DNA of 42,944 nt from Thermomonas sp. (GTDB taxonomy: Bacteria > Pseudomonadota > Gammaproteobacteria > Xanthomonadales > Xanthomonadaceae), in the NCBI RefSeq assembly GCF_020850895.1, contig NZ_JADZDS010000097.1, forward strand, positions 1 through 42,944, written 5' to 3'. The position numbers and the translations under genes are program-made. The notes under the pieces are model-generated. The model was given only the letters and a program-made list of their open reading frames with translations. It did not search any database and had not been told where the DNA came from. Shown piece by piece: positions 25,494 to 39,081 of this stretch. Numbering within the stretch: position 1 is the stretch's first letter; each line of letters begins with the position of its first letter.

Positions 25494-25668
25494 GGCAATG
25501 CTGAATAAGTCCGTCCTGGACATTTTCAGCACCGCCGAGTCCGGCACCCTTCGTCAAGCTCAGGACGGGCATGTCCGGACTCGCCTCACACAGATCAATC
25601 ACTTGCGTGTTTGATCCGTTGCCGGCCATCCTTGGCCGGCAGTCAACGCTGACTTGATCAGCGTTGCC
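25494..25668 (-). repeat. Nested-hairpin element, copy R1
   Basis: Reading leftward the element consists of five hairpins. A: GGCAACGCTGA with TCAGCGTTG. B: GCCGGCC and GGCCGGC around a 6-base loop (25621-25640). C: a GATCAA...TTGATC stem (25593-25616). D: GAGTCCGG with CCGGACTC (25537-25582), enclosing a CTGAGCTTGACGAAGGG insert. E: GCTGAAaATGTCC with GGACtTATTCAGC (25500-25530). The two ends are inverted copies (GGCAACGCTGA versus GGCAATGCTGA), as in small mobile palindromes. It lies between ggt (end) and the MBL gene (start). Confidence 0.75.
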
Positions 25669-25674
25669 CGAAGA

Positions 25675-25781
25675 GCCGCCTGCCTGCGTGATCGGTTCGA
25701 GCGGGCCATGGATGGCCCGCGGCCGCGAATCGAAGCCAGACGCGTAGCTTGAGCGGCGAGCCGATCACGCAGGCAGGCGGC
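25675..25781. repeat. Large palindrome with perfect 21-bp arms
   Basis: The 21-base arms 25675-25695 and 25761-25781 are exact inverse complements (left arm begins GCCGCCTGCCTGCG). Between them are TTCGA/TCGAA (25696-25700, 25730-25734) and an inner hairpin GCGGGCC-ATGGAT-GGCCCGC (25701-25720). The inner CCATGGATGG core is the same as in hairpin B of R2 and R3, so it is probably a relative or module of the nested-hairpin family. It begins 6 bases after R1. Confidence 0.8.
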
Positions 25782-25806
25782 TGGCGCGGACGCCAGCGCA
25801 AATCCG
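25769..25806 (+). repeat. 38-bp direct repeat, copy 1
   Basis: Begins GCAGGCAGGCGGC inside the right arm of the palindrome and continues through GGCGCGGACGCCAGC to CAAATCCG. It matches 25916-25953 at 35 of 38 bases. Within it, GCTGGCG and CGCCAGC are themselves inverted. Confidence 0.75.
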
Positions 25807-25915
25807 TCAGTCACTCAGGGAGAGCGCCCTGCCACCGTGGTTGCGTGGGTTCGGGCGGACAGCGGGGCAAGTGCAGGCGCAGTCCGCGGGTGCCCCACTC
25901 GGGTTCGCCGAACAT
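25807..25915. other. Spacer between the two 38-bp direct repeats
   Basis: No supported gene. It contains a small hairpin (CAGGG/CCCTG near 25816-25831) and GC-rich inverted fragments (GGGGCA/TGCCCC). An open frame on the minus strand (25811-26044) overlaps the end of ggt and is not protein-like. Confidence 0.4.
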
Positions 25916-25953
25916 GCAGGCAGGCGGCCGGCGCGGGCGCCAGCACAAATCCG
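25916..25953 (+). repeat. 38-bp direct repeat, copy 2, next to the ggt stop
   Basis: Second copy of the 25769-25806 repeat (three mismatches), ending 6 bases before the ggt stop codon. The repeat thus marks both the palindrome and the ggt 3' flank. Confidence 0.75.
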
Positions 25954-25959
25954 CGTCGG

Positions 25960-27729
25960 TCAGGGCGAAACCATCACCTCGGCCTTGCCCACCGGATTGC
26001 GCGGATCGCTGCCACCCAGCAGGACGTTGCGGACGCGATCCCACTCCACCGTCTGCAGATTGCCCCAGACATGGCTGGAGCCGCGCCCACCCGCAGCTTC
26101 ATCGGGTGGCAGCTCCAGCGTGTGGCCCCTCGCCCGCAGCTGTGCAGCCGCAGCCGGCGAGACCGCGCCTGGCTCGGCGTCGATCACGTCGGGTAACCAC
26201 TGATGGTGGTAGCGCGGCAAGGCCGCCACCTGCTGCGCATCGAGGCCATCGTCGTAGCCGAGGATGCCGAGCAGGACCATGGTAATGATCCGACTGCCGC
26301 CCGGTGTGCCCAGCACCACCACCTTGTCCGGCGATTCCATGAAGGTCGGTGTCATCGAGCTGAGCATGCGCTTGCCGGGCCTGGGCGCGTTCGCCGCATA
26401 GCCCATCACCCCGAACGCATTGGGCGTGCCGGGCTTGAGCGCGAAATCGTCCATCTCGTCGTTGAGCAACACACCTGTGCCCGGCGCGACCAGGCCGGAA
26501 CCGTACAGCAGGTTCACGGTCTGGGTCGCGCCGACGCGATTGCCCTCGGCATCGATGATCGAAAAATGCGTGGTTTCGTCATCTTCCAGCGGCGTCGGCT
26601 GGCCCGAGAGCAGATTGCTCGGCGTGGCCTTGTCCGGATTGATCGACGCGCGCAGCCCGGCGGCGTAGGCCGGGCTGGTCAGCAGCGCCTGCGGCACCTG
26701 CACGAAATCCGGATCGCCCAGATAGAACGTCCGATCACGATAGGCGCGACGCATCGATTCGACCACCAGATGCACCCGCTGTGCTTCCGGCATCGCCTTC
26801 AGATCATACGGTTCCAGGATTTGCAGCATCTGTGCCAGCGCGATCCCACCCGAGGACACCGGCGGCGCCGTCACGATGTTCCAGTCGTGATAGCGGAAAC
26901 GGATCGGCTCGCGCTCCTTGACCCCATAAGCGGCGAGCTCGGCGTGCGTCCACTGCCCGCCTTCGGCATTGACCGCTGCCACCAATTGGCGTGCCACCCG
27001 GCCGCGGTAGAACCCGTCGAAGCCCCGCTCCGCCAGCAATTCCAGCGTTACCGCCAGTTCCGGCTGGCGGAACACATCACCCTCGGCAATGGGTTTTCCA
27101 TTCGGCGAGAACAGCGCCCGCGAACCCGGATAGCGATCCATCACTGCACGTCGCTGCTGGTAGCCATGCGCCATCCGCGCATACACCGGGAAGCCGTCGC
27201 GGGCGATGCGAATCGCCGGCGCCAGCGTCTGCTTCAGCGGCAGGCGTCCGTATTTTTCCGCGACATGGACCAAAAGCGCAGGCAGGCCGGGAATGCCGGC
27301 CGACCACGGGCCGTTTTCCGCGCGGTCCTGATCAAGGTTGCCATTGTGATCGAGGAAACGCTCCGGCGTCGCCGCCGCCGGCGAGGTTTCGCGGCCGTCC
27401 ACGAAAATGTCCCGCCCGCTTTTTGCGTCGTGCAGCAGCCACAGACCGCCACCGCCCAAACCCGAACTGATCGGCTCGACCACCGACAGCACCGCCGACA
27501 CCGCCACCGCGGCATCGAAGGCGTTGCCACCTTCGCGAAGGACCTGTGCACCCGCAGCAGTTGCCGCTGCGTGTGCACTTGCAATCACCGCGCCGGGCGG
27601 ATGCGCGGGCTCCGTTTGCGCCAGACCCGTCGCCCCCACGCCCAGTGCAAGCAGCGGCAGCAACAGACCGAACGCCGCTGCCGTCAGCCGCGATGCGATC
27701 CCCCAACCGCGACTCTGCACGGACCGCAT
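25960..27729 (-). CDS. ggt: Gamma-glutamyltransferase
   Basis: A 589-residue periplasmic enzyme, made as a self-cleaving proenzyme, that hydrolyses or transfers the gamma-glutamyl group of glutathione. A signal peptide is visible (ASRLTAAAFGLLLPLLALGVGATGLAQ). The large subunit has GGNAFDAAVAVSAVLSVVEP and SSGLGGGGLWLL; autoprocessing occurs before the nucleophile threonine in DDETTHFSIIDAEGN. The small subunit includes LNDEMDDFA, MLSSMTPTF and LGTPGGSRIITMVL. ATG 27729 is preferred over GTG 27747. It follows a lipoprotein gene by 39 bases and is last in the rsmD-coaD-lipoprotein-ggt group. Confidence 0.95.
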   Translation of the reverse strand: MRSVQSRGWGIASRLTAAAFGLLLPLLALGVGATGLAQTEPAHPPGAVIASAHAAATAAGAQVLREGGNAFDAAVAVSAVLSVVEPISSGLGGGGLWLLHDAKSGRDIFVDGRETSPAAATPERFLDHNGNLDQDRAENGPWSAGIPGLPALLVHVAEKYGRLPLKQTLAPAIRIARDGFPVYARMAHGYQQRRAVMDRYPGSRALFSPNGKPIAEGDVFRQPELAVTLELLAERGFDGFYRGRVARQLVAAVNAEGGQWTHAELAAYGVKEREPIRFRYHDWNIVTAPPVSSGGIALAQMLQILEPYDLKAMPEAQRVHLVVESMRRAYRDRTFYLGDPDFVQVPQALLTSPAYAAGLRASINPDKATPSNLLSGQPTPLEDDETTHFSIIDAEGNRVGATQTVNLLYGSGLVAPGTGVLLNDEMDDFALKPGTPNAFGVMGYAANAPRPGKRMLSSMTPTFMESPDKVVVLGTPGGSRIITMVLLGILGYDDGLDAQQVAALPRYHHQWLPDVIDAEPGAVSPAAAAQLRARGHTLELPPDEAAGGRGSSHVWGNLQTVEWDRVRNVLLGGSDPRNPVGKAEVMVSP

Positions 27730-27768
27730 CCGGTCAGGCCGACGCACCGACCAAGCCGGGCATCTCCG

Positions 27769-28257
27769 TCACTTGGCCTCGACGAAGATGTAGTCGACGC
27801 CCGCCGGTGTCACCGCCGCCTTGACCCGATCATTGAGGTTCGGCGGACCGATGAAGACCACCTTGACGCCCTTCATCGAGCCCTGCGGCACCGCCGGGAA
27901 GGCCGCCTCGATCATCTCGACTTCCTTGTCCGACGCCGGTGACGCGAATACCAGCATATTGCCCTGGATGATGCCGCGGCCAAGGTCTTCCTTCAGCTTG
28001 TCCAGCTGGCGACCGTACAGGCCCTCGAAGTCTTCGGTGCTGACCGACGGCAGGAAATACACGAACGGGCTGCCGGTGATCCCTTCCATGTAGGGCTGCA
28101 GCTTGTAATTCAGGTAAGCCACCCAATCCTTTTGCTGATCACTGCTCGGCAATGCGACTGCAACCGGTTCCGCGGCTTGTGGAGCCTCTTGTTTCTTGCA
28201 GGCCGTAAACGGCATCAGCAGGACGAAGACGAGCATCAAGCGCGTCAACATGTTCAT
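27769..28257 (-). CDS. Predicted lipoprotein, conserved hypothetical
   Basis: A 162-residue protein with a lipoprotein signal peptide (MLTRLMLVFVLLMPFTAC, lipid-bearing Cys after FTA), so it is anchored in a membrane and faces the periplasm. The mature part has PYMEGITGSPFVYFLPSVS, then a NMLVFASPASDKEVEMIEAAF beta-alpha unit and MKGVKVVFIGPPNLNDRVKAAV, suggesting a compact alpha/beta domain. ATG 28257 is supported by GGGGA 6 bases upstream; the frame runs further but without such a site. It lies between coaD and ggt on one strand. Function unknown. Confidence 0.85.
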   Translation of the reverse strand: MNMLTRLMLVFVLLMPFTACKKQEAPQAAEPVAVALPSSDQQKDWVAYLNYKLQPYMEGITGSPFVYFLPSVSTEDFEGLYGRQLDKLKEDLGRGIIQGNMLVFASPASDKEVEMIEAAFPAVPQGSMKGVKVVFIGPPNLNDRVKAAVTPAGVDYIFVEAK

Positions 28258-28316
28258 GGCATTTCCCCAAGTTTGTTGATGGTGAACGAAGTGACACGAG
28301 CTTGGCGGGAAGGCGG

Positions 28317-29421
<1,105 letters not shown>

Positions 29422-29481
29422 CGAGGGTGGGAGGGGGCGAGTGTTACCATGCGAGCCATTCTCCGACATTCGCGCATGCCC

Positions 29482-30531
29482 ATGGTCAGTTGGTTCCGCC
29501 GCAAGACGCCCGATGCGCCCGCGAGCGCGCCGACGGCGGCCCAAGCGAACCCGGAAGCCGTGTCACGGGCGAACGATACGCCCGCCGAAGCACAGCCCGA
29601 ACCGGCACCCGCGGCGGCCGGCAAGCTCGGCTGGATGCAGCGCCTCGGCAAGTTGCTGAATACCGACGTGGCCGAGTTGCTGGGCCGCAACCCGATCCTC
29701 GACGATGACCTGCTCGACGAGATCGAAACCGCGTTGATCAGCGCCGATGTCGGCGTGACCGCCAGCACCGAACTGGTGAACATACTGCGCAAGCGAATGA
29801 AGGCGCGCGAGTTTGCCGACGCCAAGGCCCTGCTGACCGCCCTGCGCACGGAGCTGGTCGCCCTGCTGCGGCCAGTCGAGCGTCCGCTGCAGATCGATCT
29901 GACCAAAAAGCCCTTCGTCGTGCTGACCGTCGGCGTCAACGGTGCCGGCAAGACCACCACCATCGGCAAATTGGCACGCCGCTTCAAGGACGAAGGCCGT
30001 GGCCTGATGTTGGCCGCCGGCGACACCTTCCGCGCCGCTGCGGTCGCGCAGTTGCAGGCCTGGGGCGAGCGCAATGGCGTGACGGTGGTGGCACAGGGCC
30101 AGAATGCCGACACCGCGTCGGTTGCCTTCGATGCCCTGCAGGCAGCGAAATCACGCGGCACCGAGGTGTTGATCGCCGACACTGCCGGTCGCCTGCACAC
30201 CCAGGGCGGGCTGATGGACGAGTTGGCGAAGGTCGCCCGCGTGCTGAAGAAGCTCGATCCCGAGGCACCCCATGAAGTCTTGATGGTGATCGATGGCACC
30301 ACCGGCCAGAACGCGATCAACCAACTGCGCAAGTTCAACGAGAAGATCCCGGTGACCGGCCTCGTCGTCACCAAGCTCGACGGCACCGCCAAGGGTGGCG
30401 TCGTGTTCGCGTTGGCACGCGAATTCGGCATCCCGATCCGTTACGCCGGCATCGGCGAGCGCCCGGAAGACCTGCGGGTGTTCGACGCCGAAGCCTTCGT
30501 CGACGCCCTTCTGCCCGAAGCCTTGGGCTGA
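29482..30531 (+). CDS. ftsY: Signal recognition particle receptor FtsY
   Basis: A 349-residue SRP-type GTPase that docks ribosome-SRP complexes at the membrane. After a short acidic/Ala-Pro-rich A region (residues 1-50) come the N domain and the G domain with G1 GVNGAGKTTTIGKLA, the insertion box AGDTFRAAAVAQL, G3 DTAGRLHT, G4 TKLDGTAKGG and the closing GIGERPEDLRVFDAEAFVDAL. ATG 29482 or 29476 are both possible. It is divergent from rsmD, which is a common order. Confidence 0.97.
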   Translation: MVSWFRRKTPDAPASAPTAAQANPEAVSRANDTPAEAQPEPAPAAAGKLGWMQRLGKLLNTDVAELLGRNPILDDDLLDEIETALISADVGVTASTELVNILRKRMKAREFADAKALLTALRTELVALLRPVERPLQIDLTKKPFVVLTVGVNGAGKTTTIGKLARRFKDEGRGLMLAAGDTFRAAAVAQLQAWGERNGVTVVAQGQNADTASVAFDALQAAKSRGTEVLIADTAGRLHTQGGLMDELAKVARVLKKLDPEAPHEVLMVIDGTTGQNAINQLRKFNEKIPVTGLVVTKLDGTAKGGVVFALAREFGIPIRYAGIGERPEDLRVFDAEAFVDALLPEALG

Positions 30532-30664
30532 TGATCCGTAAAGCCCGGACAGCGATGGTGGGCACGCCTTTCGTAGCCGGTTCCACGCGGCTTCGCTGCC
30601 ACATGGAGCCGGCATGTGATTGCTTGTGCCATTCCGAACCGGCGCAAACCCAACGCCCGTGAGC

Positions 30665-31951
30665 ATGGACAAGGCCAGGCTGCCGGCAACTGCACGCCCG
30701 CGTCGGCACTGGCGGCGTCGGCTGCTGGCCCTGTTTGTCGTCTTCGCCGCGCTGGCATGGCTGCTGCAGCCACAGCGCAGCGGCCCCTTCATGCTCGCCC
30801 GCCTCGGGGAGTCCCTGGGCCTGCAGATCACGGTGCAATCCATCGATTACCGGCTGCGCGGCACGCCGGAAGTGACCCTGGACGGCCTCGTCGTCACCCA
30901 GCCCGGCCATCCCGAACCCCTGTTGCAGGCCAGGCATGCGCGGATTGCGCTGCCTTGGCAAACCCTGCGATCCAGGGGCAACCCGCTGGTCTTCGACCGG
31001 ATAGAAGTGGAGGCCCCCAGGCTCGACCTTGTGGCCACACAGCGCTGGCTTGCCTCCCGCCCGCCCGCCCCGCCCACGAAGATCCCGCTGATCACCCACG
31101 GCATCGGCCTCCGTGATGGCAGCATCGTCGCTCCCGACTGGCGTATCGAAGGCATCTCGATCACCGCCGCAACCCTGCATCCGCGTCAACCGCTGCACGC
31201 GCACGTCGCTGGCCGCTACCGCGATGCAACGATCTCCATCCCGGCCAGACTGGAGATCATCATTGCCGACCCGCAGGCCTTGCCCGACGGGATGGCAAGC
31301 ACGATCGAGGCACGCGGCACCCTCGCGCTGATCGGCACGGACTGGGCATTGCCGGCGCAACTCGTCGCCCATGCCCCGCTTCGGTTTGGCGAAGGGACGA
31401 TTCGCATGGATCCAGCCAAGCTCGGCATCGTCGGGCGCTACCGCTCCGGCACGACATCGGTTCCGTTCCGGCTTGGCCTGTACGGACGCATCATCCACGC
31501 GGAAAGCCGCTGGACATTCGACCCAGCCACCGCCGTGCTCGCGGGCGGCGACGTGTTGCCTGAGGTCAGTGTGCGCGGCAGCGCGGTTCTCGGGGAGGAC
31601 TTGCGCCTGCACCTGGCAGGATCCATGGCCTCATGGCCGCAGGCGTGGCCGGCATTGCCGGCGCCGCTGGCAGGCTCACGATCACCCTTTGGACTCACGC
31701 TGGACTACGCCGGCGCACCCGCACTTGACGCCTTGATTTCCCTTGCACTGCGTCGCGACGCAACCCGTTTCGACGCCCGCTTCCGGCGCGCCGACGTGGT
31801 CGCTTGGCTGGACGCAACAGCCGGCTCACCGTTGCCGCCGCTGCAGGGGACATTGGCCACCCCAAGGCTGGTCCTGCCCGGTGCCACGCTGGATGGCGTG
31901 GAGATCGAGATCGAAGACTCCCGCACCACGTCCGATGCCGTCACGCCATGA
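30665..31951 (+). CDS. AsmA-like membrane-anchored protein, N-terminal anchor
   Basis: A 428-residue protein with a basic N-terminus, one membrane helix (LLALFVVFAALAWLL, about residues 20-34) and a long periplasmic part built of beta-strands, with repeated DGLVVTQPG/FDRIEVEAPRLDLV-type segments as in the AsmA/DUF748-like family that bridges or organises the cell envelope. The family call rests on the overall pattern rather than a single motif. ATG 30665 is preferred (GTG 30659 also in frame). The stop overlaps the mutY start (ATGA), so the three downstream genes are translated as a chain. A hairpin with GCCGG/CCGGC arms (about 30574-30614) lies upstream. Confidence 0.72.
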   Translation: MDKARLPATARPRRHWRRRLLALFVVFAALAWLLQPQRSGPFMLARLGESLGLQITVQSIDYRLRGTPEVTLDGLVVTQPGHPEPLLQARHARIALPWQTLRSRGNPLVFDRIEVEAPRLDLVATQRWLASRPPAPPTKIPLITHGIGLRDGSIVAPDWRIEGISITAATLHPRQPLHAHVAGRYRDATISIPARLEIIIADPQALPDGMASTIEARGTLALIGTDWALPAQLVAHAPLRFGEGTIRMDPAKLGIVGRYRSGTTSVPFRLGLYGRIIHAESRWTFDPATAVLAGGDVLPEVSVRGSAVLGEDLRLHLAGSMASWPQAWPALPAPLAGSRSPFGLTLDYAGAPALDALISLALRRDATRFDARFRRADVVAWLDATAGSPLPPLQGTLATPRLVLPGATLDGVEIEIEDSRTTSDAVTP

Positions 31952-33003
31952 GCGCGGCCATCTCCCGGTTCGCCCCACGCCTGCTTGACTGGCACGACCA
32001 GTTCGGTCGCCACCAGTTGCCTTGGCAACACCCGCGCTCGCCCTACCGCGTGTGGCTGAGTGAAATCATGCTGCAGCAGACCCAGGTGGCCGTTGCCACG
32101 GACTACTTCCTGCGCTTCGTTGCAGCACTGCCCGACCTTCCCGCGCTGGCACGGGCGCCGCTCGACCAGGTGCTCGCACTGTGGTCGGGGCTGGGCTACT
32201 ACGCCCGCGCCCGCAACCTGCATTCTGCCGCGCGGCTGTGCATGGCCAAGCACTCCGGAGTGTTGCCGGACAGGATGGATGCGCTGCTGGAACTGCCGGG
32301 CATCGGCCGCAGCACCGCAGGCGCAATCCTTGCACTGGCCCACGACGTGCCCGCCCCGATCCTGGACGGGAATGCCAAGCGCCTGCTGTGCCGGGTGTTC
32401 GCCATCGAGGGCTGGCCCGGGACATCTGCCGTCGAAAAGCAACTGTGGGCCTTGTCGGAAAAACTCTTGCCCAGGGCCAGGCTGGCCACCTACACGCAGG
32501 CGCTGATGGACTTGGGCGCCACCGTGTGCACCCGCGCCAATCCGGCCTGTGGACGTTGCCCGTTGCAGGATTCCTGCCGTGCGCACGCCCAGGGACGCAC
32601 CACGACCCTGCCCACTCCGCGACCGGGCAAGCCACTGCCGCAGCGCGAAGCCCACATGCTGGTCATCAAGGATGCCAAGGCGCGGGTCCTGCTCCAGCAA
32701 CGACCCCCAGCCGGCCTCTGGGCATCCCTGTGGTCGCTGCCGGAGTTACCTGATCGCGCGCAGGCACTCGCATGGTTCCAGGACCGCTTTGATGATGATC
32801 CTGCAGGTGCCGTGCACATGGCGCCTTTCCTGCATGGATTCAGCCACTATCGCCTGAGCATCCACCCGATCCTGATCACCATCAGCGGTACACGCCACCG
32901 GATGACGGACCGCAACGACCTGCGCTGGATGCGTCGCGACGACCTCCCCGTGCTCGGACTGCCAGCGCCAGTGCGCAAGCTGCTCCAGGAGCCAAGCGAA
33001 TGA
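31948..33003 (+). CDS. mutY: A/G-specific adenine DNA glycosylase
   Basis: A 351-residue repair enzyme that removes adenine mispaired with 8-oxoguanine. The catalytic region has SEIMLQQTQVAVATDYF, the helix-hairpin-helix LPGIGRSTAGAILALA, the catalytic aspartate in ILDGNAKRLLCRVF, and an iron-sulfur cluster loop CTRANPACGRCPLQDSC (four cysteines). A C-terminal NUDIX-like 8-oxoG recognition domain follows (RVLLQQRPPAGLWASLWSLPE). It overlaps the AsmA-like gene upstream and yggX downstream by four bases each. Confidence 0.97.
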   Translation: MSAAISRFAPRLLDWHDQFGRHQLPWQHPRSPYRVWLSEIMLQQTQVAVATDYFLRFVAALPDLPALARAPLDQVLALWSGLGYYARARNLHSAARLCMAKHSGVLPDRMDALLELPGIGRSTAGAILALAHDVPAPILDGNAKRLLCRVFAIEGWPGTSAVEKQLWALSEKLLPRARLATYTQALMDLGATVCTRANPACGRCPLQDSCRAHAQGRTTTLPTPRPGKPLPQREAHMLVIKDAKARVLLQQRPPAGLWASLWSLPELPDRAQALAWFQDRFDDDPAGAVHMAPFLHGFSHYRLSIHPILITISGTRHRMTDRNDLRWMRRDDLPVLGLPAPVRKLLQEPSE

Positions 33004-33272
33004 CGCGCCGAGTGCACTGCGTCGTCGACGGCATCGACACCGAAGGCCTGGACTACCCGCCGTGGCCAAGCGCCGCCGGGCTGCGCGTCTACCATGAGGT
33101 GGGCAAACAGGCTTGGCAGCGCTGGCTGGCCCACCAGACCATCCTGATCAACGAATACCGGATCTCACCGATGAACTCGGAACAGCGCGCTTTCCTGGAA
33201 CTGGAAATGGTCAAGTTCCTGTTCGAGGACAGCGTGCACATGCCCCCCGGATATGTCCCGAAGGACGAGTGA
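33000..33272 (+). CDS. yggX: Probable Fe(2+)-trafficking protein YggX
   Basis: A 90-residue protein of the YggX family, involved in iron handling and protection of iron-sulfur enzymes against oxidation. It has the single N-terminal cysteine (VHCVVDG), the GLDYPPWPSAAGLRVYHEV motif and QAWQRWLAHQTILINEYR, all diagnostic. Its ATG overlaps the mutY stop. The mutY-yggX pairing is conserved in Gammaproteobacteria and fits protection of the MutY cluster. Confidence 0.96.
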   Translation: MTRRVHCVVDGIDTEGLDYPPWPSAAGLRVYHEVGKQAWQRWLAHQTILINEYRISPMNSEQRAFLELEMVKFLFEDSVHMPPGYVPKDE

Positions 33273-33313
33273 TTCGCGGGTTCATCGACCGGGAAGCGCT
33301 GGCTGCGCACCGA

Positions 33314-33766
33314 TCAGAGCCGTCCGCGCAAGGCCCTTTCTGCAGCCCGCAGTGCCTCGAGGTCGACCGGCCGAATATCCTGGATGCGGCAGACGAAATT
33401 TTCGCCTCCGACCTTCACCTTGTCGAACCTTGACAGCATGATGCCGTTCAGCGGTTCGAGATCCAGCGTCTGGGCGCCATGGTCCCAGTTCAGGCAGGGC
33501 CCGGACAGGGTCACCAGCCAGCGCTCCCCGGGCCGCAGATCCAGCGAAAAATGCCAGCCGTCGATTCGGCTCCAGCCGATCGGGGTGGTGTAGTTTATCC
33601 GCCGCACCGGGGCACCGGAATGATCCATGTACAGCGCGAGACGCCGCCTTTCCTCGAGGATGGGCGCGTAGGGGCTGATGCCACTGGTGCCGGCCCCACC
33701 AGGATTGGGGGTGGCGCACGAAGCCAGCCCCAACACAACGAATGCGGAAAAGATCGATGTCCTCAT
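33314..33766 (-). CDS. DUF6491-like lipoprotein
   Basis: A 150-residue lipoprotein (signal MRTSIFSAFVVLGLASC, lipid Cys after LAS). The mature domain, with APVRRINYTTPIGWSRIDGWHF, then WLVTLSGPCLNWDHG and NFVCRIQDIRPVDLEAL, matches small xanthomonad lipoproteins of the DUF6491 type: two conserved cysteines and a terminal RI-IRPVD motif. GGGAGG 7 bases before ATG 33766 fixes the start. It converges with yggX. Function unknown. Confidence 0.82.
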   Translation of the reverse strand: MRTSIFSAFVVLGLASCATPNPGGAGTSGISPYAPILEERRRLALYMDHSGAPVRRINYTTPIGWSRIDGWHFSLDLRPGERWLVTLSGPCLNWDHGAQTLDLEPLNGIMLSRFDKVKVGGENFVCRIQDIRPVDLEALRAAERALRGRL

Positions 33767-33810
33767 GACACGCCTCCCATCCACTTGTACCCGCATCTTG
33801 CACGCTCCAG

Positions 33811-33953
33811 GGCAACCTCCGATTAACCCAGAGGTTGCCGCCAGCCATGGACGGCTGGCCACGAATCAATCATGCACGTGATCGATTCGTGCGAGTCGAG
33901 CCTGGGCCTGTGCCGGGCTCGACGTGGGCTGACAACGCCAGGATGGCGTTGTC
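33811..33953 (+). repeat. Nested-hairpin element, copy R2
   Basis: Five hairpins in order. A: GGCAACCTC/GAGGTTGCC (33811-33839). B: GCCAGCC-ATGGAC-GGCTGGC (33840-33859). C: CGAATCAATCA/TGATCGATTCG (33862-33889). D: GTCGAGCC/GGCTCGAC (33895-33923). E: GACAACGCC/GGCGTTGTC (33931-33953). Arms differ from R1 and R3, but pairing is kept. It lies between the DUF6491 lipoprotein start and the tRNA-Phe promoter. Confidence 0.75.
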
Positions 33954-34035
33954 CAGACCTTCCCGAGACCAATCCTGACTGATTCGCAGTCATGTGGATG
34001 AGACGATTGCCAAGAACGGTTCGCATTCGTTCAGC

Positions 34036-34064
34036 TTGCTCGACAAGCCGCGTCCACGTATCAT
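34036..34064 (+). promoter_or_regulatory. Promoter of tRNA-Phe
   Basis: TTGCTC (34036-34041) and TATCAT (34059-34064) are exactly 17 bases apart, 15 bases before the tRNA. The GC-rich discriminator (GCGCGGCC) after the -10 is typical of stringently controlled stable-RNA promoters. Confidence 0.7.
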
Positions 34065-34079
34065 GCGCGGCCTGAACTT

Positions 34080-34155
34080 GGCTCGGTAGCTCAGTTGGTA
34101 GAGCAGCGGATTGAAAATCCGCGTGTCGGTGGTTCGATTCCGCCCCGAGCCACCA
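34080..34155 (+). tRNA. tRNA-Phe (anticodon GAA)
   Basis: A 76-base tRNA with acceptor arms GGCTCGG (34080-34086) and CCGAGCC (34145-34151), discriminator A and an encoded CCA (34153-34155). D-arm GCTCAGTTGGTAGAGC, anticodon stem with loop TTGAAAA (GAA at 34113-34115) and the GGTTCGATTCC T-arm are complete. It is a single gene followed closely by a terminator. Confidence 0.98.
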
Positions 34156-34161
34156 ATACAC

Positions 34162-34195
34162 AACGCCCAACTGTTCTCAGTTGGGCGTTTTCGTT
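34162..34195 (+). terminator. Intrinsic terminator of tRNA-Phe
   Basis: A perfect 12-bp stem AACGCCCAACTG (34162-34173) and CAGTTGGGCGTT (34178-34189) with a 4-base loop, followed by TTCGTTT. It starts 6 bases after the tRNA. Confidence 0.92.
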
Positions 34196-34258
34196 TGTGG
34201 ATTCCGCCCACCACGCTGGGTTCCTGCCTTTTTTCGTGTGCGACCGGGTGCATGAGGC

Positions 34259-34291
34259 AAAAAGCACGACGACCCCGTCAGGGTCGTCGTG
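34259..34291 (-). terminator. Intrinsic terminator of the amidase gene
   Basis: A perfect 11-bp stem (CACGACGACCC and GGGTCGTCGTG, 34265-34291, 5-base loop) followed on the minus strand by CTTTTTGC. It lies 23 bases after the amidase stop. Confidence 0.9.
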
Positions 34292-34314
34292 GTGGAATGC
34301 CCTCGTGTCACGGA

Positions 34315-36240
34315 TCAGTTCTTGATCTGCACATCGTCGACATAGACGAAGAGGTTGTAGCTGGTCTGGGCGTGGTACAGCCAGACCGCATCGAGGGTCA
34401 CCGTCGAGGCGGTGATGGCGCCATTGCCGCCGACCCAGGCGTCCCATTGGGCGGCATCTTCCAGACTCCATTCCACATAGGTCCACGTGTTTGCAGGGAG
34501 CGTGCGGGAAACCGAGCGTTCGGTACCGTCGCTGTCATCCACGCCAAGCGCAACCGACATGCCAGTGCCGGCGGCATAGACCCAGAACCCGACTTTGCCA
34601 TTGGCACGCGTCAGCTGGACGTTGGCCGAGGGTGAACCGCTGCCCGACAACAAGCGCACATTCCAACTGGCCGACGTGCTCGGGTTATCGACCAGCTTGA
34701 CCTGGAGCGAGCAACTGCCGTATCGGCTCATGCTGCAGTAGCGCAGCGCGGTGGACGCCGTGGATATGCCGGTGGTGCTGCCCGAGTAGGTCGGCGAGGT
34801 GTTGAAGTGGCCCACCGTGGACTCGAAGCTGTCGAGCAGCTTTACCGTCCCGGCCGGCGCCGGGTTGAGCAGACTGTAGTAGCGCGACCAGTTCCAGTAG
34901 ATGCCCGGGTCGGTGTGGTCGTTGCCGCTGTAGTGCTGGTGGCCCTTGATCTTGACCGAATCGGACAGCACCACGGAACCGCTCGACGACGGTCCGTTGT
35001 AGGCCGAGCTGCACTTGATCGCGCTGTACTTGCTGCAGAAATTGCGTACCAGCGCGCTGGAGGCGTTGTACATCGCGGTGGTGTACCAGGAACTGTTGCT
35101 GATGTAGCCCTCGTGCTCGATCCCCAGCGTGTAGCTGTTATGGTTGCGCACGTGCCATGCGGTATGTGCGTTGCGCACCATCTGGGTCACCTGCCCGTCA
35201 GAGCTGCGGATGACATAGTGGGCGCTTACCTGCGCCGCCGGGTTCTTGAACCACGAGATGGTGCCGGCATAGCTGCCCTGGGTGGTGTGGATGGTGACGG
35301 CACCGATCGCCGCGCTGCGTGACGCGGTGTAATTGCTGGGGCTGGCCGGATCCCAGATCGCCGGACCGTAGTCGGTGGCGCCCTGCGCTCGGCCAATGGC
35401 TCCGGTGCCTCGCGCCACCAAGGTTTCGCTGAGCGGGTCAATGGCATAGCCATCCGCAACGACACGCCCGCTGCTGATGTCCAAACGCACGAATGGCGCA
35501 CGCAGCAGGACCAGTTGACGGGCGGCAAAGGCGCGCTCCCACTGGATTGGCCGCTCCGGTACGATGGCGCCCCTGTCATTCACGCCGCGGTCCATCGACA
35601 GCAACACGTCAAAAGCAAAGCTCTGGCGCGCAAAGTCATCGATGGCATTGCCGCCGGGCACCGGCGTGAAGCCCGCATAGCGCGCAAGCACCTGGCTGAT
35701 CTGTTCCGGCGCCGGCGCAATGCCGTTGCGTGCGAGGCCGGCGGTGCGGATTTCCTGCGCCAGCAGCGCCGCGGCGGCGAGGATATTGGCGCGACTGTCG
35801 GTCATGATCAGACGCGTAGACAGGCCAGTGAGCCGGGAAGCGGCGGCGACTTGATCGGCGAATCCCTCGCCGGCATACAGTCCCATCACGCCATAGGCAG
35901 TTGGCATGCGGTTGTGGTGGTGTTCGGTGTCGGCAGGCTGCAGCGGCAGCCAACGGCTCTGTGACCAAGCGATGGCTTCCAGCGTGCCCGCCGGGATTTG
36001 CGGATAAGTGCGGTAGGCCTCGGCGAAATACTTGGGCATCACCGAGCGCATGGCGCGCAGTTGCAGCTCTTCCATCTGCAACAGGCGCAACAGCTGCGGG
36101 TCTTCGCCACCGACGACGCGTGCGGGTGCGGCCGGTGCGCCGCCTGTGGCGAGCGCGGGATTTGCGGCCATCGCCGCGGTCGCTGCAAATGCAAAAACGC
36201 CAGCTACCATGCTTGCAAGCAAGCCTGATCGAGTGGACAT
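34315..36240 (-). CDS. Secreted N-acetylmuramoyl-L-alanine amidase with degenerate lytic-transglycosylase-like and C-terminal beta domains
   Basis: A 641-residue secreted protein. A signal peptide is present at residues 1-26 (MVAGVFAFAATAAMAAN). Residues about 55-190 resemble a lysozyme/transglycosylase fold (AIAWSQSRW, AYGVMGLYAGEGF), but the usual catalytic Glu-Ser is replaced by Ser-Gln. The Amidase_2 domain (about 285-435) has zinc ligands in VTIHTTQG and HQHYSGNDHTDPG and GIEHEG near the active site. The C-terminal ~190 residues (from LLDSFEST) form a beta-rich, disulfide-bearing, carbohydrate-binding-like module. GGGGAG 9 bases upstream supports ATG 36240. It probably cuts peptidoglycan outside the cell, in lysis of other bacteria or in wall turnover. 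Confidence 0.88.
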   Translation of the reverse strand: MSTRSGLLASMVAGVFAFAATAAMAANPALATGGAPAAPARVVGGEDPQLLRLLQMEELQLRAMRSVMPKYFAEAYRTYPQIPAGTLEAIAWSQSRWLPLQPADTEHHHNRMPTAYGVMGLYAGEGFADQVAAASRLTGLSTRLIMTDSRANILAAAALLAQEIRTAGLARNGIAPAPEQISQVLARYAGFTPVPGGNAIDDFARQSFAFDVLLSMDRGVNDRGAIVPERPIQWERAFAARQLVLLRAPFVRLDISSGRVVADGYAIDPLSETLVARGTGAIGRAQGATDYGPAIWDPASPSNYTASRSAAIGAVTIHTTQGSYAGTISWFKNPAAQVSAHYVIRSSDGQVTQMVRNAHTAWHVRNHNSYTLGIEHEGYISNSSWYTTAMYNASSALVRNFCSKYSAIKCSSAYNGPSSSGSVVLSDSVKIKGHQHYSGNDHTDPGIYWNWSRYYSLLNPAPAGTVKLLDSFESTVGHFNTSPTYSGSTTGISTASTALRYCSMSRYGSCSLQVKLVDNPSTSASWNVRLLSGSGSPSANVQLTRANGKVGFWVYAAGTGMSVALGVDDSDGTERSVSRTLPANTWTYVEWSLEDAAQWDAWVGGNGAITASTVTLDAVWLYHAQTSYNLFVYVDDVQIKN

Positions 36241-36754
36241 CCGGTGATTCTCCCCAAGGTAACGCGATGATGATTCAGAAGTGGTGCGTGCATCCCCATG
36301 CACCGCCGGGAAGTTAGCACGCATCCGTGGACAAGACTTGTCGCGATGCAACACGTTACCGAACCTCCGATTTAGAGCAACGTTGATTGAGTCGGCGTTG
36401 CCTGCCGACCATGGATGGTCGGCCGCAGATCGATCACCGAAGTGATTGATCCGCGGGAGTTGCGTTCGGGCATGCACCGGACGCAGCGTGTGCTGACACG
36501 TCCAGAAGGGACATGTTCAGCATTGCCTTGAGCAAGCAGCCGAACGGATCACGCATCACGCTGCGCGTCGTGACGCAACGACCTCGCATGAAAGTCCTGC
36601 AACGCCATCATCCACGGACCGGATGCCAGCAAGCCCCGGGATAGCCAGCCTCCGGCCAGCTCCAGGAACGCCGGACCCTGCCCCATCACACCCTGCGTCG
36701 ATTCCAGATTGGCAAGGCATCTGGCCCTGCGGCTGCTTTGGTGGTTCAATGGCG
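36241..36754. other. Intergenic region between the amidase and the TPP riboswitch
   Basis: No gene is supported. It contains the amidase leader and presumably promoter (36241-36376), nested-hairpin copy R3 (36377-36526), and about 230 bases before the riboswitch that should carry the promoter of the thiamine operon. No convincing -35/-10 pair could be fixed. Confidence 0.5.
36377..36526 (+). repeat. Nested-hairpin element, copy R3
   Basis: Hairpins A: GCAACGTTGA/TCGGCGTTGC (36377-36401). B: GCCGACC-ATGGAT-GGTCGGC (36404-36423). C: GATCGATCAC/GTGATTGATC (36428-36451). D: TGCGTTCGG/CCGGACGCA (36461-36485). E: TGCTGA/TTCAGCA around GTCC/GGAC (36491-36522). It ends in ATTGCC, the inverse of the opening GCAACG. 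Same order and spacing as R2; reversed relative to R1. Confidence 0.75.
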
Positions 36755-36838
36755 CCCGAAGCGGGGGTGCCCGGCGTGGCCGGGCTGAGAGAGTCCCTTG
36801 GAACCTGATCCGGTTTGCACCGGCGTAGGGAGCTTGAT
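36755..36838 (+). promoter_or_regulatory. TPP (THI-element) riboswitch
   Basis: All conserved parts of the thiamine-pyrophosphate aptamer are present: GGGGTGC (36764-36770), CTGAGA (36785-36790), CCTTGGAACCTGAT (ending 36809) and GCGTAGGGA (36823-36831), closed by an AAGC/GCTT P1 stem. It lies 69 bases before the TonB-dependent receptor start. The receptor lacks a clear Shine-Dalgarno sequence. TAGGG of the aptamer could pair with CCCTA at 36889-36893 just before the start codon, but this is weak evidence for the switching mechanism. Confidence 0.96.
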
Positions 36839-36906
36839 CGAGGCACTGCGTCCACGTCGGATGCACGCCTGCCGTCGCTTCGCCTATCCCCTACCGGCGT
36901 CGCGAC

Positions 36907-39081
36907 ATGAGTCCCAAGTTCTCCCCCCTGCTGCTTGCCCTGCTGCCGCTGTTGGCCAATGCCCAGTCCACGCGCCCACCGGCGCCCACGACCGACGGCA
37001 ATGAGCAGCCCACCCAGCTGCCCGCCGTGAAGGTGACCGCCCACGATGAGGCCACCCCGCGACAGGAGCGGATCGCTGCCTGGGGCATTGCCACCCCGCA
37101 CGACACCCCGGCGGCGATCAGCGTGATCGGGCGCGACCGCATCGAAGCCCGCCAGATCCGTACCCTGAGTGAACTGGCCCGCGAAGACGCCACGCTCGGG
37201 GACAATTACGCGCCGGTCGGCTATTACCAGAACATCGCGATCCGTGGTTATGCGCTGGACCTCGGCACCGGCTATCGGATCAACAACCTGGCGATGACCG
37301 GCGAACAGCCCATCGCGCTGGAAGACAAGCAGCAGGTCGAAGTGCTCAAGGGCCTGGCCGGCCTGTCCGCCGGGGTGATGGAACCGGGCGGCGTGGTCAA
37401 CTTCGTCAGCAAGCGGCCGGAGGACGTGCGCACGTTGACGCTAGGCGTGGATTCGCGCGGTTCGAGCTATGCCGCGCTGGACCTTGGCGCATGGATCACG
37501 CCGCGCTTCGGCTTGCGCACAAACATCGCCGGCGAACGCATGCACGCCTTCGTGGAGCACGCCGATGGCCGCCGCGCGTTCTTCGCCGTGGCCGCGGACT
37601 GGAAGATCAGCGACGCGACCACGCTCGAGCTGGACCTCAACCATCTCGACAGCGCCCAGCGTTCGGCCTCCGGATACATGCTGATTGGAGGGACGCAGTT
37701 CCCGCAGCACGTGGATCGCCACGCGATGCTCGGCTACCAACCGTGGCAGAAGCCGGTCGCCATCCGCGCCAACAATGCCAGCGCACGCCTGCGCCACGCC
37801 TTCAATGATGACTGGACGCTCCGGCTTGCACTCGGCCGCAGCCGCAGCGTGATCGACGACAACGTCGCCTTCGCCTACGGTTGCTGGTACGTGACGGCCT
37901 GCTCGAACGGCAGCCCGCCCAACTATTTCGCACCGGATGGCAGTTACGACATCTACGACTACCGCAATCCCGGCGATACCCGCACCAGCGACGACGCGCG
38001 GATCACGCTGGAAGGCCACTTCACCACCGGCGGCATCGGGCACGCCCTCACCCTTGGCGTCAGCGCCTTCCATCGCGGTATCAACCGGCATTGGCACGTC
38101 AACGATTACATCGGCACCGGCAACATCAATGATCCGCTGCCGCCCGTGTTCAACCCCTCACCCAAGCAGATCGGCCCGCGCGTGCAGCGCCTGAACAGTT
38201 GGCAGCGGTCTCTTTTTGCGATGGATCGGGTGAGTCTGGACGAGCACTGGCAACTGCTCATCGGCGTGCGCCACATCGACCTCAGCGAACAGGCACGCAG
38301 CAAGAAGAACATCCTCGAACGCGATACCCACCTGCACACGACACTGCCGCAGGTCGCCCTGCTGTGGCAGCCGAATGATGCTCTCACAACCTACGCCAGC
38401 TACAGCGAAGGGCTGTCACTGGGCCAGCAAGCACCGTCATGGACCAGCAACGATGGCGACTCGCTGGCACCACGGCTTTCGCGGCAAGTCGAGGCCGGCA
38501 TCAAATACCGATGGACCCCGCGCCTGGATGTCGATGCCGCCCTGTTCCGCATCCGCCAGCCCTACCAATACGCGCAACCCGACGGCTCCTGGGCCGGCTT
38601 CACCTTCGTCCAACGCGGCGAGGAAGTGCATACCGGACTGGAACTGTCTGCCAACGGGCGCATGGGCGATGCCACCAGCCTGCATGCCAGCCTTGCGCTG
38701 ACGCAGGCACATGCAACAGGCACCGGCACGCCCGCCTATGACGGCCATCAGGTGGTCAACGTGCCGCGCCTGCGCGCCAGCCTGCAGATCGACCACCGGC
38801 TTGCCGGATTGCCGCGAATCACCGTGTTCGGGGGCTGGCGCTATGCCGCAGCCAACCCGGCGACGCCGGACGGGGCATTGAGCGCACCCGCCTACAGCGT
38901 GTTCGATCTCGGCCTGCGGCATGATGGCTCGCTCGATGGCCATGAGGTGAGCACGCAGGTGGGCATCGACAATCTGTTCAACCGCTTCTACTGGCGCGAC
39001 ACCGGCAGCTCGCAGGGCGACAACTACCTGTTCCCGGGCGCACCGCGCCTGCTGCGCCTGACGGTGCGCGTGTCGCTGTGA
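36907..39081 (+). CDS. TonB-dependent outer-membrane receptor, probable thiamine uptake
   Basis: A 724-residue outer-membrane beta-barrel receptor powered by TonB. It has a signal peptide (LLLALLPLLANAQS), a TonB-box-like segment (LPAVKVTAH), a plug domain at about 60-190 (HDTPAAISVIGRDRIEARQ, EVLKGLAGLSAGVMEPGGVVNFVSKRP) and a barrel ending YLFPGAPRLLRLTVRVSL, with the terminal aromatic/aliphatic signature. The TPP riboswitch in front and a PnuT-type permease behind (GTGA overlap) point to thiamine or a precursor as the ligand; the barrel itself resembles siderophore-type receptors. Start ATG 36907. Confidence 0.93.
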   Translation: MSPKFSPLLLALLPLLANAQSTRPPAPTTDGNEQPTQLPAVKVTAHDEATPRQERIAAWGIATPHDTPAAISVIGRDRIEARQIRTLSELAREDATLGDNYAPVGYYQNIAIRGYALDLGTGYRINNLAMTGEQPIALEDKQQVEVLKGLAGLSAGVMEPGGVVNFVSKRPEDVRTLTLGVDSRGSSYAALDLGAWITPRFGLRTNIAGERMHAFVEHADGRRAFFAVAADWKISDATTLELDLNHLDSAQRSASGYMLIGGTQFPQHVDRHAMLGYQPWQKPVAIRANNASARLRHAFNDDWTLRLALGRSRSVIDDNVAFAYGCWYVTACSNGSPPNYFAPDGSYDIYDYRNPGDTRTSDDARITLEGHFTTGGIGHALTLGVSAFHRGINRHWHVNDYIGTGNINDPLPPVFNPSPKQIGPRVQRLNSWQRSLFAMDRVSLDEHWQLLIGVRHIDLSEQARSKKNILERDTHLHTTLPQVALLWQPNDALTTYASYSEGLSLGQQAPSWTSNDGDSLAPRLSRQVEAGIKYRWTPRLDVDAALFRIRQPYQYAQPDGSWAGFTFVQRGEEVHTGLELSANGRMGDATSLHASLALTQAHATGTGTPAYDGHQVVNVPRLRASLQIDHRLAGLPRITVFGGWRYAAANPATPDGALSAPAYSVFDLGLRHDGSLDGHEVSTQVGIDNLFNRFYWRDTGSSQGDNYLFPGAPRLLRLTVRVSL

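Follow-up and report, generated by a model that had tools for sequence, protein, structure and literature searches.

A five-hairpin intergenic element of Thermomonas sp.: an apparent IS5-type miniature transposon with candidate CsrA/RsmA-binding loops

In a contig of Thermomonas sp. (NZ_JADZDS010000097.1, assembly GCF_020850895.1), of which we analysed positions 1 to 42,944 (this whole stretch of 42,944 nucleotides is called the window hereafter), three copies of one element, R1, R2 and R3, share five hairpins, A to E, in the same order. The body hairpins of this element and the loop motifs of its hairpins B and E are kept across the 26 families of Gammaproteobacteria in which we sampled it, and also outside that class. 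Judging from sequence comparison, we think it probable, although with limited assurance, that the element is a miniature inverted-repeat transposable element (MITE) of the IS5 type which carries a mobile CsrA/RsmA-binding RNA, and that its source lineages, not its individual insertions, are under selection. The wider scenario is a tentative one that we hold to be possible though rather doubtful: a selfish element would have kept a two-site CsrA/RsmA-binding RNA across proteobacterial families, so that its dispersed transcripts would dock or titrate the regulator and CsrA sponges would be gained and lost by transposition.

Results

An earlier note on this DNA had proposed three copies of a single five-hairpin element with compensating base changes in the arms, and both points hold. 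R1, R2 and R3 can be aligned pairwise, the arm changes compensate each other in the alignment of the copies, and the RNA folding z-scores are -8.4, -8.0 and -7.1, respectively, with 0 of 200 shuffles folding equally well. An unfiltered scan of the window with a covariance model, trained on 21 copies from the source genome with R1, R2 and R3 among them, gave three strong matches (scores in Table 1), the next one being R2 in antisense at 26.9 bits. The extent first given for R1 (25494-25668) was correct, that of R2 ended at 33953, inside the right terminal repeat, the true end being 33963, and that of R3 (36377-36526) is shifted slightly to 36376-36527.

The element is abundant and widely spread. 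In the source genome, 2.53 Mb in 146 contigs, BLAST with R3 as the query found 42 places, a good number of them spanning the full length at 88-93% identity, and the covariance model returned 93 matches at E up to 0.01, of which 71 reached at least 44 bits; the remaining matches lie below 34 bits, many of them being the antisense of elements already counted. The covariance-model search, which the earlier note had proposed, found further copies not only in the source genome but also in samples of the family, the class and the phylum. By BLAST, 8 of 25 genomes of the genus Thermomonas, the source genome included, hold the element; by the covariance model, it is present in at least 42 of 198 genomes (21 of 54 genera) of the family sample, at least 35 of 274 genomes (29 of 222 genera, 26 families) of the class sample, and at least 38 of 299 genomes of the phylum sample, 3 of these belonging to the same class and 35 being labelled as the same phylum, with 29 of the 35 from a single family (f191). 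These genome-scan counts are lower bounds, because the scans used stricter filters and did not score every first-look candidate. Named genomes, scanned with a pattern, yielded at least 117 stretches, including ones from Pseudomarimonas arenosa, Rehaibacterium terrae, Nevskia sp. and Chromatiales records; no match was obtained in plasmids (two queries) or phages (one query). Some genomes hold many near-identical copies (G006 is an example) and one of the subfamilies described below, S2, unites copies from two genera, which suggests recent movement and perhaps transfer.

Selection on structure, which the earlier note had read from the arm changes, is supported by covariation far above both shuffled and slid controls. 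From 69 class-wide matches 52 copies were used, one per handle or record, some of which may belong to the same genome; 42 of these and 16 Xanthomonadaceae copies make up an alignment of 58 sequences, in which both partners varied in 48 of 56 pairs (36.3 in shuffles), the count of cells was 613 (204 in shuffles) and the covariation score was 0.486 (0.169 in shuffles). With the partners slid by one column, no more than 49.4% of cells were paired, compared with 85.9% in register. Left out of the alignment were L196, L197, L204, L219, L221, L223, L238, L251, L256 and L271, among which L219 had no B apex found and L221 and L223 had no B motif.

The history of the changes was followed in a second collection, for which 81 of 146 and 77 of 85 matches were kept after antisense partners, weaker matches and one duplicate had been dropped, resulting in 158 copies from 23 genomes and 9 genera; the 134 that score at least 80 bits were used for subfamilies and for the flank-duplication test given below. 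The consensuses of the 13 subfamilies with three or more copies (89 of the 134 copies, 7 genera) fold into five hairpins, and the pairs that changed in 78 comparisons between consensuses were compensated in 534 cases, one-sided but kept in 187 and broken in 171. At like identity, 46 consensus pairs are better paired (34% of changed pairs broken, 49% compensated) than 30 decayed single copies (46% broken, 28% compensated). Changes private to single copies, counted in non-polymorphic columns only (columns whose commonest letter is below 70% being skipped), affect 1.78% of paired and 2.18% of unpaired sites (p 0.19); where the partner was unchanged, 86 broke the pair and 53 kept it by G-U (38% kept as against 35% expected under a simple mutation model), and where the partner had changed too, 26 sites were kept and 11 broken, a count for which no chance expectation was computed. 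Since private changes are thus without detectable constraint, selection seems to act on the spreading lineages, i.e., on the single-strand fold of the transposon lineage rather than on its insertion sites.

The most strictly kept letters of the element are those of the hairpin B loop. Only three of the 191 columns are invariant in the 58 sequences, all of them in or beside this loop, which reads C-A-N-G-G-A-N-G with C in 57, A in 57, G in 58, G in 58, A in 56 and the last G in 58 of 58; the full motif C[ANGGAN]G stands at hairpin B in 54 of the 58, one with a gap at the first N. Both N positions vary freely class-wide, yet of the 21 training copies 20 carry T at loop position 2 and 17 at position 6, so that the pattern was not imposed by the search. 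Hairpin E, whose loop is often a pentaloop NGGAN or else a hexaloop ANGGAN, has GGA in 55 of 58 sequences (43 of 46 once the 12 rows fetched by a GGA-containing pattern are removed), and the loop of hairpin C is GNRA-like in most (G 50, A 53 and A 47 of 58). The 58-row alignment omits copies without the B motif; in a less selected set of 65 sequences, the 52 copies plus the 13 consensuses, apex GGA occurs at B in 60 of 64, at E in 60 of 65, at C in 4 of 64 and at D in 15 of 64, those at D never being ANGGA. Among the 53 of these 65 sequences with both motifs, 44 have their B and E GGA spaced by 91-93 bases.

Such loops point to the regulator CsrA/RsmA. Hairpins exposing ANGGA are given as the preferred CsrA target in a section of PMC7366521, and ACARGGAUG as the RsmA consensus in a section of PMC3937308; hairpin B reads GGCACAGGGATGTGCC in 6 of 17 full class-wide sequences, and this contains the RsmA consensus. 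With ANGGA in loops and at least two GGA sites, the elements have what is looked for in a putative CsrA/RsmA-binding RNA, R3 keeping one of the two sites. The csrA gene is present in the source genome and in all 35 genomes of the class sample that hold the element, as opposed to 200 of the other 239 (p 0.007).

Regarding its mobility, the element (about 150 bp) has no transposase inside, occurs in many near-identical dispersed copies, and ends in GGCAAYGCTGA or GGAANCTCTGA, which form imperfect terminal inverted repeats of about 15 bp resembling the ends of IS5-family insertion sequences (ISs); the right end of R2, TTGTCCAGACCTTCC, for example, shows an imperfect likeness over 15-18 bp to the IS ends TTGTTCAGACCTTCC. 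YTAR is the typical IS5 target, and most of the 4-mers that flank the elements fit it. The two flanking 4-mers of a copy are the same in 33 of the 134 cases, compared with 6.0 expected after re-pairing of the flanks, and this signal is strongest at the 4-mer beside the ends (next-best offset, 11 against 4.1). IS5-family ISs of the genus Thermomonas (PF01609) have ends that read GGAAGGTCTGAACAA and are flanked by TTAG on either side, PF01609 being present in 7 of 25 genus genomes and in 12 of 17 chosen element genomes. In other element-bearing genomes, candidate ISs of 1158-1220 bp with like ends (e.g., GGAAACGCTGATTTATTC and GGAAACTCTGAACAAGTC) and YTAR duplications were seen at 10 of 23 loci, without a chance control, and one further candidate among the 23 had unlike ends. 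In five IS5 relatives compared by eye, only the terminal repeats are common with the element, the inner hairpins not. Taken together, the terminal repeats, the YTAR duplication and the IS5-like ends identify the elements as IS5-type MITEs. Of the small non-autonomous mobile palindromes that had been suggested for the window, mobility stands, with an IS5 character added, and the palindrome does not: there is no single long one, and each end folds on itself. On one contig of a further genome (G474 contig C1; L369, L378), twelve PF01609 matches of equal score, two pairs of them spaced by 1224 bases, represent a recently multiplied IS5-family IS.

Which strand folds was read from the mismatches enclosed in Watson-Crick stems. 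G-U outnumbers A-C by 49 to 20 when each handle or record contributes one copy (p 0.0006) and by 12 to 3 in the consensuses (p 0.035), and fresh single changes are balanced (62 G-U and 56 A-C), from which it follows that one strand folds, either as RNA or as single-stranded DNA. RNAalifold pairs of the 13 consensuses gave G-U 22 against A-C 2; because that program tolerates G-U, the symmetric mismatch definition was relied on instead. It is the GGA-bearing strand whose fold is supported as conserved; either RNA or single-stranded DNA would suit, and the loops favour RNA. Thus, of RNA or extruded DNA, the two options raised at the outset, a single-strand fold survives, while selection on a two-strand cruciform is disfavoured by the same counts.

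As for gene context, 154 copies were placed among genes called with a home-made codon score, not a standard gene finder, and 153 of them overlap no gene by more than 75 bases, one doing so. Of these 153, 37 have the same direction as both neighbours (sense) and 53 the opposite one (antisense), a further 24 occupying convergent and 20 divergent gaps; for the other 19, no gene was called on one or both sides. The copies stand close to gene 3' ends, those of the sense-sense class at a median of 34 bp behind the upstream gene. A position upstream of leftward genes, observed in the earlier note, is true of R1, R2 and R3 and is no rule among the placed copies.

Discussion

The interpretation with which this analysis began is partly supported overall, and three features were not part of it: the conservation of GGA in the loops, an occurrence reaching well outside Xanthomonadaceae, and the lack of detectable constraint on the private changes of the copies. 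We propose that an IS5 transposase acting in trans on the ends would move the element, that insertion would occur at YTAR sites between genes, that the copies would be transcribed by read-through from neighbouring genes, and that hairpins B and E, spaced by C and D, would constitute a two-site docking module for CsrA/RsmA, as their loops suggest.

Several observations weigh against this proposal. The structure scored for covariation was itself predicted from the same 58-sequence alignment, and this alignment, unfiltered and inclusive of decayed copies and alignment error, lends no support to the strand claim (G-U 129, A-C 116). Within subfamilies, once shared changes enter the count, variation at paired sites (419/10251) is half that at unpaired sites (275/3081), which speaks against neutral decay of the copies; we take this as lineage-level constraint, and it could also be constraint on the copies. 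In single copies, changes are as frequent at GGA sites (12/525) as elsewhere (228/12126), so that no function maintained at the places of insertion is apparent, and orientation to the genes shows no bias (37 sense against 53 antisense, p 0.11). The flanks of R1, R2 and R3 are degenerate, without an identical 4-bp duplication in any of the three, and no PF01609 transposase match was found in the element genomes G006, G015, G019, G425, G442, G326, G280 and G485. The association of the element with csrA was computed without control for genome size and kinship, both of which confound it. Finally, the Rfam families of CsrA sponges match at chance level, RsmV with 16.1 bits (E 0.39) and rsmX with 15.4 bits (E 0.74), so that the gathering scores of clan CL00106, 100 and 56 bits for these two, are not reached. 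As GGA sites change like any others and orientation is unbiased, it seems to be the spreading lineage or a source copy that benefits, not each insertion; the picture would also be compatible with a master copy acting as a sponge RNA for the host while giving off dead copies.

Of the alternatives, we give most weight to one that retains the IS5-type MITE and lets the folded GGA strand act in the form of single-stranded DNA (on the lagging strand, for instance), its loops binding a transposition or replication protein in cis; we nevertheless think this unlikely. If the element needed its folded strand in cis in order to move, the constraint between lineages, the absence of detectable constraint on private changes and the lack of orientation bias would be explained together, and G-T is better tolerated than A-C in single-stranded DNA as well. 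On the other hand, IS5 moves by ordinary double-stranded DDE transposition, to which the terminal repeats and the 4-bp duplication point, the five IS5 relatives do without the inner hairpins, and no reason is known to us why loops in DNA should read ANGGAN.

It is quite improbable that the element is an ordinary MITE whose palindromes are matched without selection by template-switch (quasipalindrome) correction, with loops kept by common descent. The compensated double changes among the private changes (26 against 11, without the chance expectation) speak for such correction, but it is disfavoured by private changes with an unchanged partner, which mostly break pairs, and by decayed copies being worse paired than consensuses at like identity; moreover, it would neither fix loop letters amid changing stems nor favour G-U over A-C. 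Equally improbable is a cis element useful to the host (a terminator, an mRNA stabiliser or a regulator) and kept at its insertion sites, for although all but one of the placed copies are intergenic and near gene 3' ends, and paired sites vary less than unpaired ones once shared variation is counted, private changes are alike at paired and unpaired sites, with GGA sites no exception, and orientation is unbiased, which disfavours it for the mass of copies while single domesticated copies are possible.

Returning to the IS5-type MITE with a CsrA/RsmA-binding RNA, we compared it with known systems. No description of the element was found in the literature searched (most subscription journals lie outside it) or in Rfam 15, in agreement with the earlier note, which knew of no named family with this layout; no Rfam match on an element, in the window or at the tested loci, reached its gathering score, and in the window the scan at that score returned only a tRNA and a thiamine pyrophosphate (TPP) riboswitch. 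IS5-type ISs and MITEs share with the element the imperfect terminal repeats of about 15 bp, the YTAR flanks with 4-bp duplication, the many copies and the intergenic position; the element differs in having five separate hairpins instead of one long palindrome, and in loop motifs and structure that are kept across families and beyond the class. The TwoAYGGAY RNA motif has, by its name, AYGGAY loops like those of the element. It is named in PMC2864571, and it was absent among the Rfam matches on elements, a search in which its presence in Rfam 15 was not checked. CsrB/CsrC, RsmX/Y/Z/V and RsmU likewise comprise several hairpins exposing ANGGA or GGA (sections of PMC7366521 and PMC7694677); they are small RNA genes or RNAs derived from 3' untranslated regions, whereas the hairpins described here belong to a mobile element present in many copies. 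Repetitive extragenic palindromic (REP) sequences and bacterial interspersed mosaic elements (BIMEs), including the SMAG repeats of Stenotrophomonas, are abundant intergenic palindromic repeats too, but REPs measure 20-40 bp with a GTAG or CGTC tag (in part of PMC3733652), as against about 150 bp with terminal repeats and duplication. Transcripts of the MITEs QMITE1/2 of Coxiella burnetii are predicted to form stable hairpins; QMITE2 differs in its 7-9 bp duplications and 23-29 bp terminal repeats (sections of PMC5896051 and PMC10969869), and CsrA is not named in the main text of PMC5896051.

The gyrA RNA motif (RF01740), listed for Pseudomonas in PMC2864571, matches the D-E half of the element in sense, with at best 43.0 bits against a gathering score of 45. 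Sub-threshold matches of this kind occur at 8 of 16 loci in one set, at 3 of 10 in another and at nine places of the source genome (same-strand examples on the D-E half are L239 4843-4932 and L104 1577-1664). In a further set none of 16 class-wide loci matched, and of 274 class genomes none exceeded the cut-off and one, the source genome, had matches at E up to 0.001. The motif covers 88 positions without A, B and C, and the consensus of its second loop, aaGAu, lacks the first G of GGA. A common origin of the gyrA RNA and the D-E half of the element is possible on sequence grounds, which would suggest a kinship for an orphan motif.

If CsrA/RsmA does bind, a module that docks a global regulator would be kept by a mobile element across families while its individual copies decay, a new meeting point of transposons and post-transcriptional control. 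According to a section of PMC3937308, rsmB homologues had not been identified in Xanthomonas; were the proposal true, RsmA-sequestering RNAs could come, among other sources, from these elements in the family to which that genus belongs. Even without CsrA, this is a widespread structured element to which neither the literature searched nor Rfam 15 gave a name.

Coordinates and further observations

Table 1. Copies of the element in the window, their hairpins, and related insertion sequences of the genus
Feature	Position	Strand	Evidence	Remarks
R1, full element	25494..25668	-	132.3 bits	insert of 23 bases within hairpin D; flanks TTCG / TTTG (read in element orientation), degenerate and non-identical
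R1 hairpin B	25621..25640	-	sequence and model match	loop AAGGAT, C-G closing pair
R1 hairpin E with part of right terminal repeat	25500..25530	-	sequence and model match	loop AGGAC
R2, full element	33811..33963	+	142.5 bits	IS5-type right end TTGTCCAGACCTTCC; flanks CCAG / CGAG, degenerate
R2 hairpin B	33840..33859	+	folding and model match	loop ATGGAC, C-G closing pair
R2 hairpin E	33929..33956	+	sequence and model match	loop AGGAT, C-G closing pair
R3, full element	36376..36527	+	170.1 bits	flanks TTAG / TTGA
R3 hairpin A	36377..36401	+	folding and model match	left terminal repeat, self-folded
R3 hairpin B	36404..36423	+	folding and model match	loop ATGGAT, C-G closing pair
R3 hairpin C	36425..36454	+	folding, alignment and model match	loop CCGAAG; most relatives GNRA-like here
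R3 hairpin D	36459..36487	+	folding and model match
R3 hairpin E with part of right terminal repeat	36493..36520	+	folding and model match	GGA lost, AGAAG
Genus ISs with TTAG on both sides	L084, L085, L090, L094		four loci, two genomes

The insert of R1 (25547-25569, in the loop of hairpin D) makes a longer form of the element, and inserts like it were found in two copies of genome G019 (L039, L060). Elsewhere in the source genome, one copy is without hairpin D (L018 2074-2199) and three loci hold half elements that match only positions 1-83 or about 74-150 of the query (L019, L021, L026). Tandem elements a few bases apart were observed as well (L224 737-1028, L256 6451-6751 and L297 1907-2213).

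Adjoining R1 in the window, on the side of a gamma-glutamyltranspeptidase gene, lies a 26-nt inverted repeat (25674-25782) with 96% complementary arms and 57 nt between them, either another palindromic element or a terminator. Downstream of R3, the TPP riboswitch (36753-36848) precedes a gene for a TonB-dependent receptor (36907-39081).

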